Assembly: GCF_021284745.1 (NCBI RefSeq)
Contig: NZ_CP089925.1
Coordinates: 2,231,001-2,295,000 of the forward strand
Direction of reading: 5' to 3'
From: Lysobacter sp. KIS68-7
GTDB lineage: Bacteria > Pseudomonadota > Gammaproteobacteria > Xanthomonadales > Xanthomonadaceae
DNA: 64,000 nucleotides
This document shows, one piece after another, positions 51,648 to 58,268 of this stretch; the first letter of the stretch is position 1; the number at the start of each line of letters is the position of its first letter. Made by a program: the position numbers and the translations under genes. The notes beneath the pieces are model-generated. The model was not told the origin of the DNA, ran no database searches, and saw nothing but the letters and a program-made list of their open reading frames with translations.

Positions 51648-52139
51648 TCAGAAGGTGACGGTGACGTTGATCGTGTCGCTGTAAGTCCCCGCACCGACGT
51701 TCTGGCTGCCGCCGATCTGCCCGTAGATGGGGCGGACCGCGCGGCGGCTGCCGCCGGAGGGATTGCTGCCGGTGCAGCCGTTGCCGGTCTGGCCGGTGGT
51801 GCAGGTCGACGTCGAAGAGCCTCCGGTGCCGTCACCGAAGATGGTGGCGTGCGCCGCTTCGAGATAGAGGTTGTAGAACAGGTTCTCCGCCCCGTTCACC
51901 ATGCGGCGGTTCGCGAAGGAGCCCGAGTTGCCCGCGTCGATCGAGACGGTGAAGGTGAGTGGATTGCCCGTGCAGTCGATCGTCAGTGAGCCCGTACCGT
52001 CCAGGGGCGCGGCAGACGAAGGATCGTAGACGCCGAACGCGACGCCCGCGGTGTTGATCGTGCAGCTGTCGGCCGCGTGCGCACGGGTGGCGAACGCGCA
52101 GCCGGCGAGGGCGAGCAGGAGGGCGCAGACGGATTTCAT
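51648..52139 (-). CDS. Spore coat U-domain pilus protein (likely tip-side subunit 2)
   Basis: A 163-residue exported protein (ATG 52139, signal peptide MKSVCALLLALAGCAFATRA) with the spore coat U (SCPU) fold: CTINTAGVAFGVYDPSS near the mature start and GSQNVGAGTYSDTINVTVTF at the end. A Gly/Ser/Thr/Cys-rich insertion (STSTCTTGQTGNGCTGSNPSGG) is present. It is the last gene of the pilus operon; in Csu systems the last gene encodes the tip adhesin, but here it is a single-domain subunit. An upstream ATG (52154) is possible. Confidence 0.82.
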   Translation of the reverse strand: MKSVCALLLALAGCAFATRAHAADSCTINTAGVAFGVYDPSSAAPLDGTGSLTIDCTGNPLTFTVSIDAGNSGSFANRRMVNGAENLFYNLYLEAAHATIFGDGTGGSSTSTCTTGQTGNGCTGSNPSGGSRRAVRPIYGQIGGSQNVGAGTYSDTINVTVTF

Positions 52140-52163
52140 TTCGCATGCTCGCATGCGCGCGGG

Positions 52164-52649
52164 TCAGAATGTGATCGCGACGCGGATGGTGTCGCTGTAA
52201 CTGCCCACGGCGACGTTCTGGCCCGCGGGGACGAGGCCATACATGCGCTGCGTCGCAGTGAGCGAAAAGATGCCGCTGCAGCCACCGCTGGTCCAACCGG
52301 TCAGGCACGTCACGTCGGAGGTGCCGTTCGTGCCGTCGCCGAAGATCGTGGTGTAACCGGAATCGGTGTAGAGCTGGTAGAACAGTTTTTCGATGCCGCT
52401 ATTCATGTACCGATTGGCGAAGCCACCCGCGCCACCATCGTCGAGCTGGACCTGGACGCTGACCAGATAGTTGTCGCACGTGACCGACACCGTGCCGGTG
52501 CCTTGCAACGCGGTGGCGGAGGCCGGGCTGTAGACGCCGAAGGCCACGCCCGTGGAAGCCACGGTGCACGCGGCCTGCGCCAGCGGCACGGCGCCGAACC
52601 ATCCGAAGGCGATGGCCAGCACGAGCACCGCCCGCGCATGGCGGCTCAT
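52164..52649 (-). CDS. Spore coat U-domain pilus protein (likely minor subunit)
   Basis: A 161-residue exported SCPU protein (signal MSRHARAVLVLAIAFGWFGA then cleavage near PLAQAA). ACTVASTGVAFGVYSPASA near the mature start, and the ending GQNVAVGSYSDTIRVAITF, are diagnostic. Cys pairs (CTVA, CDNY, DVTCL, GGCSG) suggest two disulfides. ATG 52649 overlaps the usher stop (ATGA). Similar to the following gene and to the major subunit at 55829. Confidence 0.85.
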   Translation of the reverse strand: MSRHARAVLVLAIAFGWFGAVPLAQAACTVASTGVAFGVYSPASATALQGTGTVSVTCDNYLVSVQVQLDDGGAGGFANRYMNSGIEKLFYQLYTDSGYTTIFGDGTNGTSDVTCLTGWTSGGCSGIFSLTATQRMYGLVPAGQNVAVGSYSDTIRVAITF

Positions 52650-55027
52650 TGCAGCTTCTCGCAGGCGATGGTGCCGAGGTCCACGGTGCCGGCGGCGTCC
52701 TGGGCCGGCACGTCCACCTTGCACGCGAAGTTGCCGTCGTCGCTTTCCACGCGCACGTCGTTCTGGCCGACCTGCAAGGTCTCGAAGTAGAACAGGCCGT
52801 CGGTGCCGATCGGCATGCCCGCGTCACCGTCCTTCACGTGCGCAAGATCGCCCGCCGCCTGTCCCGCGTAGCGGAAGTGGCCCTTCACCGCGCGCACCGC
52901 GTGCGCATCGAGCACGAGGATCGAACCGGTGTTGCGCGCCACGCGCAGCTGGTGGACCGGCTTCTCGCCCAGGTCGACCCCGGCCGGGATGGCGGCGTCA
53001 TCGAGGCTGAGGCGGTTCGGGTAGTAGGGCAGCATGTCGCGCACGAGCAGGTCGCCGTGCTTGTCGGTGCGGCCGATGCGCTGGTTTTCGCGCAGCACCG
53101 GAACGTCCGCCATGCCGGGCACGCGCACGAGCGCGAAGCTGCTGTCGATCGGCGGCGTGGCGAACACCCGGCCGCCGACGGCGACGATCGCGCCGGTCGC
53201 CGTGGCGCGGAGGTTGGTGTCGTCGCCGTTGCGCTCGGCTTCGAGCAGGTAGCGGCCGTGCGTGCCTTCGTATTCGCCCAGGCCGAAGCCGATCGTGCGG
53301 CCGCCTTCGCGCTGCACGTTGACGGCGTAACCAAAGCCTTGCTCCAGCGGACGCGAGCGCTGCGCGTTGAAGCCGTAGCCATCGTGCGACACGCCATCGC
53401 GCTCCTGGTGGCGCGCGGTGAAGCCGACGTTGTCGCGCGAGAACGCCATGTTGAGCGTCAGCTGGATGCTGGTGTCGCGGAAGAAATCCGATTCGGTGCG
53501 CTGGCCGAGCAGGTACAGCGAGGTCAGCTCGCCGATGCGCCACGCGGTGGAGAAACCCGCACTGCGCTCGAGCGGCAGGCCATCGCGCTTCTGCCGGCCC
53601 GCGTTGAGCTGCACGCTCAGGCGGCTCGTCGGGGAGAAGGAGAAGGCGGCGTAGTCGTTCTCGCGCACGGTGCCGAGCGAGCGGACGAGCGGGTCGGACA
53701 GCGCGCGGTAGTCGCTGGTCGCGCGCAGCGCACCCAGGCCGAAAGACCAGGAACGCGCGCTCCAGCTGTAGTTGGCCGAATACGCGTGGCCGTGGTCGAG
53801 CAGGTCGGCATCGCTCACCGCGTAGGCGAAGGCGAACTCTCCGAAGCCCGTGCGCAGCGCGGTGTCCACGCCCGCGTTGCGGACGTTGTCGTCGCCTTCG
53901 ATGCGGCCGCCGAGGGTGACCGCGTCGCTCAGGCCGCGGCGATACCAGCCTTGCGCGGCGGTGTCGTCGGCGTAGTCGCCGTTGCCGAAACCGCCATCCG
54001 TGCGCGGCTTGCCCACGCGGAACGAATACTCGCTCAGTCCCTTCGCCAGCAGGCGCGGGCTGCCGCCGTAGTACGACTGCGTGGCGAGCTCGGTGCGATT
54101 GCCGAGCGGATCGCGCACGATGACGCGCACGTCGCTACGGCCCGGCGGAATGCCGAGCTGTTCGAGCGTGAAGGGACCGGCGCCGAATTCGCGGCGGCCG
54201 ATCAGTGCGCCGTTCGCATACACCTCGACCGTGCCGGGCGTCTGCAGCACACCGGAGAAATACGGGCGCGGCACCGTGACGAGATAGGGATCCTGATCGA
54301 ACGCGCGCTCCACGCCCACGCCGCCGAGCAACTGCCCGCCGCCGAGCGGATCGCGCGCGATCGCGTACTGGTCGCCCACGGTCCAGCGCTGCATGGCGGA
54401 GACGCGGTCGTATTCGAAGCGCGTCATGCCGCGCAGCCAACCGTCGATGTTGTTCCATCCGCCGGTGGAGCGCAGCGCGGCGTTGCCGCGGCCGATGGCG
54501 GCGTCGAAGAAGAGATTGCGTTCGTCGCGCGTGCCGACGGTGGCGGCATAGTTGGCGAACGCGGTCCACGAAGGCGTGCCCTGTTCGCCCGTGTTGCCGC
54601 GCGGGGACATCGTGGCGGTCTGGCGCGGCAGGCGCTCGGGACGCAGCGTCAGGTCCAGGCGCAGTTGGTCGCGGTCGATCGCGAACGTGCTGCCGTGGTT
54701 GAGGGCGCGCAGCGAAATGAAGTGGCCCTGGCCGAGCGGTTCGGCCACGACGCCGGAAGTGTCGATGCCGGCGGTGATGAGCGCCTGTTGTTCGACAAGG
54801 ACATCGTCGCCGCGTGCGATCACCGGCGCGACACCGACGCAACGCGCGTTGATGCACAGGTCGAGCAGAAGCGTTTCATCGCCCGGAAGGGCGTAGACGG
54901 GCAGGGCGAGCGCAAGGCCGAGGCACAGGCCGAGCATGCGTCGCACGGGGAGCCGTGCAACGGAAAGCGTTCGTCCTTGAAGCTTGGAATCCTTCGGGAG
55001 TTTGCGTCCCTGCGTCAGCGGGCGCAT
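52646..55027 (-). CDS. Outer-membrane usher of archaic chaperone-usher pilus
   Basis: A 793-residue FimD/CsuD-type usher that assembles and secretes pilus subunits through the outer membrane. The N-terminal signal region is MLGLCLGLALALPVYA within a longer basic leader (the true start may be later than 55027). An N-terminal chaperone-binding domain (~45-160), a large beta-barrel with plug (VEVYANGALIGRREFGAGPF at ~265-284 and DVRVIVRDPLGNRTE) and a C-terminal domain with ILVLDAHAVRAVKGHFRYA (~704) are visible. Its first codons overlap the chaperone gene by 13 bases. Confidence 0.93.
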   Translation of the reverse strand: MRPLTQGRKLPKDSKLQGRTLSVARLPVRRMLGLCLGLALALPVYALPGDETLLLDLCINARCVGVAPVIARGDDVLVEQQALITAGIDTSGVVAEPLGQGHFISLRALNHGSTFAIDRDQLRLDLTLRPERLPRQTATMSPRGNTGEQGTPSWTAFANYAATVGTRDERNLFFDAAIGRGNAALRSTGGWNNIDGWLRGMTRFEYDRVSAMQRWTVGDQYAIARDPLGGGQLLGGVGVERAFDQDPYLVTVPRPYFSGVLQTPGTVEVYANGALIGRREFGAGPFTLEQLGIPPGRSDVRVIVRDPLGNRTELATQSYYGGSPRLLAKGLSEYSFRVGKPRTDGGFGNGDYADDTAAQGWYRRGLSDAVTLGGRIEGDDNVRNAGVDTALRTGFGEFAFAYAVSDADLLDHGHAYSANYSWSARSWSFGLGALRATSDYRALSDPLVRSLGTVRENDYAAFSFSPTSRLSVQLNAGRQKRDGLPLERSAGFSTAWRIGELTSLYLLGQRTESDFFRDTSIQLTLNMAFSRDNVGFTARHQERDGVSHDGYGFNAQRSRPLEQGFGYAVNVQREGGRTIGFGLGEYEGTHGRYLLEAERNGDDTNLRATATGAIVAVGGRVFATPPIDSSFALVRVPGMADVPVLRENQRIGRTDKHGDLLVRDMLPYYPNRLSLDDAAIPAGVDLGEKPVHQLRVARNTGSILVLDAHAVRAVKGHFRYAGQAAGDLAHVKDGDAGMPIGTDGLFYFETLQVGQNDVRVESDDGNFACKVDVPAQDAAGTVDLGTIACEKLQ

Positions 55028-55779
55028 GCGGCAAGACCCGCCGGGACGTCAGCCGTGAGGACCTGGTTTTCCAGGAGCTGCAATTCCACCTTCGCCGCAT
55101 GCGCGCACGCACCGGCGGGAAGATTGACCTGCACCGGGGCCTGCGCACCGGCCAACAGGTACGGCACTTCGATATTGGCTTCCTTCAGCACCTTGCCGCC
55201 TGCGTCGCGGACGATGGCCTTGCCGCCGTTCGGCGCTGCATAGCCGGTGCCGGTGTTGCGGAAGAGCAGCGTCGCGCCGTGGGCGTCGACCTTGTTCACC
55301 GAGACGCCGACCGCGGGCTTCGCGTTCGCCGGCTGCACGAACACGGGCACGCTGATCTTCGCGAGCATGCGGATGTGGCCCGCCACGGCTTCGGCGTGAC
55401 CGGGGAGTTCCTGGAGTTCGACGCGATACGCCACTTCGGACTTGGTGTCCGGCGACAGCGAGCCGATGCGCACGCGGCCTTCGGCCCCCGGCGCGATCTG
55501 CAGGATCAGCGGATGCACCACCAGGCCGTCGTCGGGCGTGAGCTGCCACTGGCCGTCGGCGTCCATGCGCCAACGCTTCACGTGGACCTCGAAGGCCAAC
55601 GGAAGGTCTTCGTTGTTCGTCATCACCACGGTTTCCACCGGGTGCGAAGCACCGAGATGGATTCGGGTGATGTTGAGGTTGAACTGCGCCGCGGACGCAA
55701 TGCCCGCAACGGTCAACGCGATGGCGATGGCCACGAAGGCGGAGAAGGCCGCGCGCGGGGCCCTGCTGATCGAACGCAT
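55015..55779 (-). CDS. Periplasmic pilus chaperone (PapD/CsuC type)
   Basis: A 254-residue protein with signal peptide MRSISRAPRAAFSAFVAIAI ... GIASAA (~residue 31), a PapD-like domain 1 (FNLNITRIHLGASH at the mature start; EVHVKRW and QIAPGAEGRVRIGS strands) and domain 2. It donates a strand to SCPU subunits in the periplasm. It is separated from the major pilin by 49 bases that contain a strong hairpin. Confidence 0.9.
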   Translation of the reverse strand: MRSISRAPRAAFSAFVAIAIALTVAGIASAAQFNLNITRIHLGASHPVETVVMTNNEDLPLAFEVHVKRWRMDADGQWQLTPDDGLVVHPLILQIAPGAEGRVRIGSLSPDTKSEVAYRVELQELPGHAEAVAGHIRMLAKISVPVFVQPANAKPAVGVSVNKVDAHGATLLFRNTGTGYAAPNGGKAIVRDAGGKVLKEANIEVPYLLAGAQAPVQVNLPAGACAHAAKVELQLLENQVLTADVPAGLAACAR

Positions 55780-55828: not shown

Positions 55829-56365
55829 TCAGAAGTTCACGGTGTAGCCGACGGTGTCGGCGTAGCTGCCGTTCGCCACGTCCTGGCCGCCCGGGATCGA
55901 GCCGTAGGTCGTGAAGGTCTGTTCGGCGTTGTTCGGCGAGGAAGCGACGGTCACGTCGTTCGCGCCGGCGGCCGGGGACAGCGTGCAACCCCAGACGACC
56001 GAGCGGCCGGAGTCGCTATAGATCTGGTAGCCGAGGCGGTTGGTGCCGCTCGCCATCTGGCGGACGGGCGCGCCGCACGTCGAACCGGCGCCCTTGTTCG
56101 CCGGCAGGCCTTCGTCGAGCGTGATCTTGATGGCCGTGCCCTTGGTGCAGCGGATCTTGATCGAGCCCGAACCCGTGGCGGCGGTGGACGCGTTCGCGCC
56201 GACCGAGTCATAGGTGCCGAACGCGATGCCGGTGGCCGGCGTGGAGATCACGCAGCTCGGCGAAACGGTGGCGGTGACCTGGAAGGTGTTGCCCACGGTG
56301 GCGGCGGAAGCATTGGCGGCGACGAGCGCCGTCGCGAGAGCGAGGAGGATCGGAGCAGAACGCAT
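55829..56365 (-). CDS. Major spore coat U-domain pilin (Csu-like)
   Basis: A 178-residue exported subunit: signal peptide MRSAPILLALATALVAANASA (~21) and mature start ATVGNTFQVTATVSPSCVIS, with the SCPU pattern GIAFGTYDSV and the ending GGQDVANGSYADTVGYTVNF. First gene of the operon and thus likely the main shaft subunit; a CAGGGGAA ribosome binding site lies before the start (56372-56379, reading leftward). Order pilin-chaperone-usher-SCPU-SCPU matches archaic chaperone-usher systems such as Csu of Acinetobacter, with fewer minor subunits. Confidence 0.9.
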   Translation of the reverse strand: MRSAPILLALATALVAANASAATVGNTFQVTATVSPSCVISTPATGIAFGTYDSVGANASTAATGSGSIKIRCTKGTAIKITLDEGLPANKGAGSTCGAPVRQMASGTNRLGYQIYSDSGRSVVWGCTLSPAAGANDVTVASSPNNAEQTFTTYGSIPGGQDVANGSYADTVGYTVNF

Positions 56366-56486
56366 TTTGTGTTTCCCCTGGAGCTTGGTCGTGCGGAGCC
56401 GGACGACTCCGTGGCGTTAAAAACTAGTGACGACCCCTCGGGGGAGCAACGAAAAACTGGTGTGGTTCACAGATACGTATCGAAAG

Positions 56487-56502
56487 TGTGACGTACGTCA
56501 CA
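56487..56502. promoter_or_regulatory. Perfect CRP/Clp-type binding palindrome
   Basis: TGTGA-CGTACG-TCACA is an exact match to the CRP/Clp consensus TGTGA-N6-TCACA. It lies 121 bases upstream of the pilin start. In Xanthomonads Clp is controlled by cyclic di-GMP, so it could connect pilus expression to that signal. The position relative to a +1 is unknown because no clear promoter was found downstream. Confidence 0.75.
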
Positions 56503-56560: not shown

Positions 56561-56595
56561 TGCGCGTCAGTACGGGTGACGCGCCGCGTCCTATG

Positions 56596-56652: not shown

Positions 56653-58149
56653 TTACTCACCCCCGGTTTTCACCGGCAGTTTCATGCGGGGAGGAGGGAG
56701 GGGGTTGACCTGCGCGGAAGCACTCGCCAGGCCCACGGGCGAGGGCTTCTGGCCCCCGCCTGTGCGCAGGTCGTCGTTGACGATCGTGCCGATCGCCTGG
56801 CCATCGCCGAGCGTGGCGTTGACCGGGTTGGTGAGCGTGACGCGGAAGGTTTCGCTCGCTTCGCGCGTCGCGTCGCCGTTGATCGTGACCGCGAAGCTGC
56901 GCGCCGTCTGGCCAGGCGAGAACGTGAGCGAGCCCGACGCGGCGACGTAATCGCTGCCTGCGGTGGCCGTGTCGTTCGACGTCGCGACGGACACAGACAC
57001 CGCGGACGTCGCCGGTGCGGACAGGCGCACGGTGAACGACAAGGTCTTGGTGCCCGACGCGCCTTCCTTGGCGGAGGCATCGTCGATGAACATCTTCGGC
57101 GGCACCGCCGCGGGCTTCCACCCGAGTTGGACCACTTCGAAGTCGCTGGCGCTGAGCGCGCTGAAGGCGGGGTTCAAGGTGCCGTTGTTCCAGCGCACGT
57201 TGAAGGTGCCCGAGATGTACATGTCCGAGCCGTTGTCGGCGACGATCAACCCGTACTTCTGCATCGCGCGGAAGATCTTGCGGGCCACGGGGTCGGTGGT
57301 GCGCGTCACGGGGTCGACGCCGTTGACGCTCTTCTTCAGTCGCAGGCGCGCGCCCATCGGCAATGCGCCGGCGGTCGAGCCCGCGGTGTGCGAGGCGGGA
57401 TAGACGTGGCCGTTGCTGGTGCGCACGGTGACGCGGAAGGCGTGGTTGATGTCGGCGACGGCCGTGTTGGCGGCTTCGTCGTAGCGCACCAGGCCCGGGA
57501 AGATCGCCAGGCCCGCCGCGTCGGCGGAGGTCCAGCCTTCGGGGCGGCGGTCGTTGCGCGTCATGTCGTAGAACGCGCCGGAGCCGGCGTGCCAGCGCTT
57601 CTCGGTGTTCGAATACCACACGTTATAGAGCTCGTAGAGCGTGCGGTTGGTGCAATCGATCATGAGCAAGTGGCGATCGCCCATGTCGCGCTCGTCCACG
57701 CTGCCGGGCGAACCGCCTTCGACCCAGTGCGCCTGCGAAATCGCCTGCGTGGGAATCGGATAGAAGGGAATGCCCGCGCCGGAATTCATGTCGACACCGT
57801 CGCTCTCGTCCCAATAGAGGAACGAAACGGCCTGCTTGGCTTGCGAACCGCTGACGACGGCGTAGGGGAAACCGTAGATGGCGGTGCTGCCGGGCGACGC
57901 CTCGCCGCCGAAATCCGGGTGCAGCTTCCGCGTGGTGCCGATGAAGCCGATGAAGCTGGCCGACTTCGCATCGACCGGCGCCGCGCTGATGTCGGTGTTC
58001 CACCAGTTGTCGGCGGGGAACACGGGCAAGGGCGCGGCGATGGGCGCGCCCTGGGCGGGGACGGTGGCGGGGCACTGTTGCGCGTGGGCCAGGCCGTTGC
58101 ATCCGAGCACGGCGATGGCGAGCGCGAAGGCGATGTTGCGCTTGCACAT
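56653..58149 (-). CDS. Exported protein with C-terminal Calx-beta domain
   Basis: A 498-residue protein with a signal peptide (MCKRNIAFALAIAVLGCNGLAHA, cleavage ~23). The Calx-beta domain is clear at about residues 372-468: SVSVATSNDTATAGSDYVA, SGSLTFSPGQTARSFAVTI and ASETFRVTLTNPVNATLGDG. The N-terminal 330 residues, beginning with LPVFPADNWWNTDISAAPVD, belong to no family that I recognise; they contain HLLMIDCTNRTLYELYNV and PASHTAGSTAGALPMGARL. Calx-beta domains bind calcium and occur in surface proteins. The gene lies between ligD and the pilus promoter region. Function unknown. Confidence 0.82.
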   Translation of the reverse strand: MCKRNIAFALAIAVLGCNGLAHAQQCPATVPAQGAPIAAPLPVFPADNWWNTDISAAPVDAKSASFIGFIGTTRKLHPDFGGEASPGSTAIYGFPYAVVSGSQAKQAVSFLYWDESDGVDMNSGAGIPFYPIPTQAISQAHWVEGGSPGSVDERDMGDRHLLMIDCTNRTLYELYNVWYSNTEKRWHAGSGAFYDMTRNDRRPEGWTSADAAGLAIFPGLVRYDEAANTAVADINHAFRVTVRTSNGHVYPASHTAGSTAGALPMGARLRLKKSVNGVDPVTRTTDPVARKIFRAMQKYGLIVADNGSDMYISGTFNVRWNNGTLNPAFSALSASDFEVVQLGWKPAAVPPKMFIDDASAKEGASGTKTLSFTVRLSAPATSAVSVSVATSNDTATAGSDYVAASGSLTFSPGQTARSFAVTINGDATREASETFRVTLTNPVNATLGDGQAIGTIVNDDLRTGGGQKPSPVGLASASAQVNPLPPPRMKLPVKTGGE

Positions 58150-58268
58150 GGGAAAGCGTTCCTTGCACTTCCGGGACCGGGCCCGAGCGTCTGCCCGGAC
58201 CCGCGCGAGCGTCAACGCCCGGATGCAGGCAATGGAGGAACGGTCACGTTTCGCCGGGCGAATCCACA

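Follow-up and report, generated by a model that had tools for sequence, protein, structure and literature searches.

In Xanthomonas campestris, the Clp promoters of engXCA, manA and xagA carry TGTGA-type operators, and c-di-GMP releases the regulator from them. Clp activates engXCA and occupies −80 to −59 and −53 to −32 of its promoter (PMC6430473). It is the site overlapping the −35 element of engXCA, and not the upstream one, that is relevant to activation. The locus examined here has the same regulator family, the same type of operator and, as predicted, the same release by c-di-GMP, but it differs from the X. campestris targets in that a chaperone-usher pilus is the target and the palindrome is perfect throughout the genus. 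In E. coli, class I CRP promoters are those in which the site lies upstream of the −35 element, without overlapping it and at a fixed spacing, and CRP-type activation of this class operates from a centre near −61.5 or whole turns further upstream, with −82.5 as an ideal phase. Our locus is alike in having a perfect TGTGA-N6-TCACA upstream of its candidate −35 element, without overlap and at fixed spacing, whereas Clp is expected to need no cAMP and the centre here is predicted to be at about −80.5.

Another SCPU-type chaperone-usher pilus under the control of a nucleotide second messenger is Csu of Acinetobacter baumannii. There, cAMP lowers Csu pili, with the CRP-family protein Vfr in the pathway (PMC11410210), and c-di-GMP is reported to raise them (PMC10721868). 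The six-gene Csu order differs from the order seen in our operon, and the passages of PMC11410210 consulted name no direct Vfr site. The literature searched contained no report of Clp control over this type of pilus, an absence that is weak evidence in itself, and the pilus operon is a new predicted target of a known regulator, Clp. Such control would link a regulator released by c-di-GMP directly to an attachment pilus in the Lysobacteraceae.

The pilus operon and the palindrome upstream of it

The window, by which we mean the whole 64-kb stretch of DNA that was analysed, contains an operon encoding, in order, an SCPU pilin, a PapD-type chaperone, an usher and two more SCPU subunits (Table 1). 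A sequence-only reading of the window had proposed an archaic chaperone-usher pilus, and the presence of SCPU subunits, chaperone and usher in one operon agrees with this; by gene content, the operon is of the archaic type. A PDB sequence search with the pilin and the chaperone at E 0.01 returned no match, a result at the level of sequence. The same reading had placed an exact TGTGA-N6-TCACA match in a 287-bp region before the major pilin, and both the size of the region and the position and symmetry of the match were confirmed. The gap extends from the stop of the upstream gene at 56653 to the pilin ATG at 56365 on the minus strand, and TGTGACGTACGTCACA at 56487-56502 matches all 10 half-site bases as a full palindrome, about 120 bp from the ATG. 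The gene upstream of the pilus (56653-58152) encodes a Calx-beta domain protein, which is found in the same place in 4/4 congeners at about 72–75% identity.

Table 1. Features of the pilus locus, with positions given in the window
Feature	Position	Strand	Remarks
Inverted repeat GCGCGTCA-N7-TGACGCGC	56562..56584	.	upstream of the Clp site
Candidate Clp operator TGTGACGTACGTCACA	56487..56502	-	perfect palindrome; centred about 80.5 bp upstream of the predicted transcription start
Second TGTGA half-site	56467..56471	-	31 bp downstream of the start of the main operator
Candidate −35 element TTGCTC	56444..56449	-	TTGC kept in all five species; 37 bp to the operator
Candidate −10 element TAGTTT	56421..56426	-	CTAG kept in all five species; spacer of 17 bp
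GGGGA, invariant Shine-Dalgarno-like run	56374..56378	-	9–13 bases before the pilin ATG
Major pilin, spore coat U (SCPU) domain	55829..56365	-	operon gene 1
Periplasmic chaperone, PapD N-terminal domain	55015..55779	-	
Outer membrane usher	52646..55027	-	
SCPU subunit	52164..52724	-	mechanical ORF; true start may lie further in
SCPU subunit	51648..52154	-	

Taken by count, the lone perfect match is weak evidence. The perfect motif occurs twice in the entire 3.25-Mb genome, so about 0.04 sites are expected per 64 kb, and sites with at most one mismatch are not in excess in the window (1 found, against a shuffle mean of 1.01). The site rises above chance because every one of the five species in the genus has a perfect site at this location. 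The other perfect copy in the genome, at L003:2105-2120 (G000:C1:17604-17619), runs into the ATG of a type IV pilin-like gene and is not matched by a perfect site in any congener, and for these reasons it probably arose by chance. One congener, G004, has a second perfect site at L066:1501-1516 (G004:C1:1196891), about 127 bp before the gene for a small protein whose N-terminus looks signal-like. A regulon built from one-mismatch sites elsewhere in the genome was considered and dropped, as most of these sites lie within reading frames; TGTAAACGTTTTCACA at L063:1501-1516 (G000:C1:2776587), which precedes a LacI-type regulator gene, resembles a LacI-family operator and not a Clp site.

Conservation and promoter geometry in the genus

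Pilin orthologs were present in 4/4 other genomes of the genus examined, and in all five genomes a perfect TGTGA-N6-TCACA is found at −137 to −140 from the pilin ATG, even though the congener pilins are only about 44–52% identical to the window pilin. The spacers differ among the five (CGTACG, TGTGCG, CTTAGA, CCTACG and TCTACG). Seven perfect sites occur in these genomes in total, five of which are the pilus operator, and three of the genomes have no perfect site other than this one. When the 200 bp upstream were aligned across the five species, invariant columns accounted for 10/10 of the half-site positions, 1/6 of the spacer and 58/179 of the ungapped columns overall, with a Fisher p of 7e-6 if shared ancestry is ignored. 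The only invariant runs of at least 4 were TGTGA, TCACA, TTGC, CTAG and GGGGA, which we read as the two half-sites, probable −35 and −10 elements and the Shine-Dalgarno sequence. The additional half-site listed in Table 1 takes the form TG[TCG]GA in 5/5 species, which is weak, and is without a partner half. We regard it as a well-supported prediction that the palindrome is a conserved Clp operator, and the earlier proposal that it serves the pilus operon now has strong comparative evidence behind it.

TTGC follows the operator at 37 bp and TAG follows TTGCNN at 17 bp in 5/5 species, with no indels between, and the alignment has indels on both flanks of this operator-promoter stretch. From this conservation we infer the candidate −35 and −10 elements; a scan for consensus promoters found none and did not pick up TTGCTC or TAGTTT. 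TTGCTC-17-TAGTTT would be the pilus promoter, starting transcription near 56414 and placing the operator centre near −80.5, which misses the ideal phase of −82.5 by about 2 bp. The alignment of a second genus (L040, L042 and L043) shows 18 bp between a weaker site, TGTGAC..CGCACG, and a conserved TCGACA-17-TAGCGT downstream of it, and arithmetic from this alignment puts the centre of the site at −61.5 relative to the predicted promoter, where class I sites canonically lie. For a third genus, g5, no promoter position could be assigned.

Since the operator is upstream of the candidate promoter with a locked spacing in five diverged species, class I activation is favoured. The sequence-only reading had held that the position of the site would allow repression, and here it found no support: the operator is outside the candidate promoter, which lies 37 bp downstream at rigid spacing, the geometry fits class I, and the expected sign is reversed. 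Repression through promoter overlap was likewise rejected, as the operator overlaps neither candidate element. Conservation of the operator was sufficient in this case to predict both a regulator and a promoter.

Regulator, signal and direction of control

Three proteins in the genome match the Crp HTH model. One of them, L005:868-1638, is classed by NCBIfam as a CRP equivalog and is closely related to X. campestris CLP (3iwz, E 1e-113), and its HTH, SRQELARLVGCSREMAGR, has a CRP-type recognition helix. The two remaining CRP/FNR family proteins are FNR-type; their presence notwithstanding, an FNR-type regulator was rejected as the reader of this palindrome, which we take not to be an FNR box. 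The residue of Clp aligned to E99 of 3iwz is glutamate, as in most family members compared, and the congeners keep E99 in Clp proteins that are 95–96% identical. E99 is described as required for c-di-GMP binding (PMC10333796, a review), and c-di-GMP as blocking the binding of Clp to DNA (PMC10333796, PMC3749722). The genome has 19 GGDEF matches and no match to adenylate cyclases of class I/III (PF00211, PF01295), so cAMP was set aside as the signal on the basis of these two classes. With a Clp ortholog that carries E99 and no class I/III adenylate cyclase found, the tie to c-di-GMP put forward from the sequence gains support, and pilus production is probably linked to this messenger.

We consider it rather probable that the palindrome is a class I activator site through which Clp drives the chaperone-usher pilus operon and from which c-di-GMP releases it. 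A nucleotide-free Clp dimer would occupy the TGTGA-N6-TCACA site, some 80 bp before the transcription start, and aid RNA polymerase at the TTGCTC-17-TAGTTT promoter; rising c-di-GMP would then bind Clp and take it off the DNA, and the operon would be expressed less. Binding, promoter, direction of the effect and response to c-di-GMP are all predicted parts of this model. Because the geometry fits class I, the predicted sign is the reverse of the one proposed before, with the pilus on when Clp is bound and off at high c-di-GMP, and Clp most likely turns the pilus on rather than off. If activation is correct, the adhesive pilus would serve cells with low c-di-GMP, contrary to the usual logic of biofilm and sessile life. 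A fuller version is offered more tentatively, in which the pilus promoter would be the genus's best-kept Clp target, activated by Clp so that low c-di-GMP allows pilus production and high c-di-GMP shuts it off, with a second conserved operator adding input.

The direction of control is where the evidence divides, as the promoter geometry leads to activation and the Acinetobacter and xagA precedents lead to repression. Clp could bind and repress, for example by acting as a roadblock for transcription from another promoter further upstream, and high c-di-GMP would then free the pilus, in line with the usual pattern of attachment at high c-di-GMP. A TTGACA is indeed found about 50–55 bp upstream of the operator in 4/5 species (TGTCA in G004), but no good −10 element lies 16–18 bp from it. 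In X. campestris, xagA is repressed by Clp via TGTGA-N6-TCGAT (PMC3528676), and Acinetobacter csu is lowered by cAMP (PMC11410210) and reportedly raised by high c-di-GMP (PMC10721868), a sign opposite to that expected under activation. Activation also has to accommodate a candidate promoter far from the sigma-70 consensus and missed by the consensus scan, as well as relatives in which the site is imperfect (mostly 8/10 in genera g5 and g3) or, in G148, missing. However, the locked spacing between operator, TTGC and CTAG, together with the −61.5 position elsewhere, is something an activator would need and a roadblock would not, and we judge repression to be unlikely.

Clp could also bind and act constitutively in this genus, largely unaffected by c-di-GMP, given that E99 is described as necessary and that this does not imply sufficiency. 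The identity of 95–96% within the genus, the retained E99 and the close match to c-di-GMP-responsive CLP proteins all argue against it, making such behaviour improbable. We give far less weight still to the idea that the palindrome is a product of chance or the site of another regulator. There are two perfect matches genome-wide and the window has no excess of sites at one mismatch or fewer, but both half-sites are kept in five species while the spacer varies, and the other CRP/FNR proteins available to read the site are FNR-type. Chance was rejected on the strength of this five-species conservation.

Distribution of the site and neighbouring elements

In a sample of 34 pilins, sites of at least 8/10 preceded 15/16 members of one pilin clade (support 100/99) compared with 3/18 outside it, and 0/500 label shuffles were as clustered on the clade. 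The clade member G148 is without a site, and in genera g5 and g3 most sites score 8/10. The 8/10 level is reached by roughly 8–10% of shuffled 300-bp upstream regions and such sites are weak when taken singly, but they are supported by their shared position and their common left half, TGTGA. No site of at least 9/10 was found in the loci examined outside the Lysobacterales, and we discarded the view that the site is a general trait of such operons, as good sites are rare beyond the one pilin clade and beyond the order. No relative of the Calx-beta gene turned up within 1.5 kb upstream of the pilin in the other genera tested, most of which keep the site; since the site persists without this neighbour, it goes with the pilin.

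A further member of the Lysobacteraceae, genome G018, has a Clp paralog that is 58% identical to Clp with the REV motif kept, located about 0.65 kb upstream of a chaperone-usher pilus operon on the same strand (L016:122-820 and L016:1477-1974). The inverted repeat listed first in Table 1 is found in full in one congener and in part in two, and the fourth has the TGACGCGC half alone. A form of this repeat with 6-bp arms occurs 3 times across the five genomes, 2 of them at the pilus locus, and it is possible that the repeat is the operator of another regulator.
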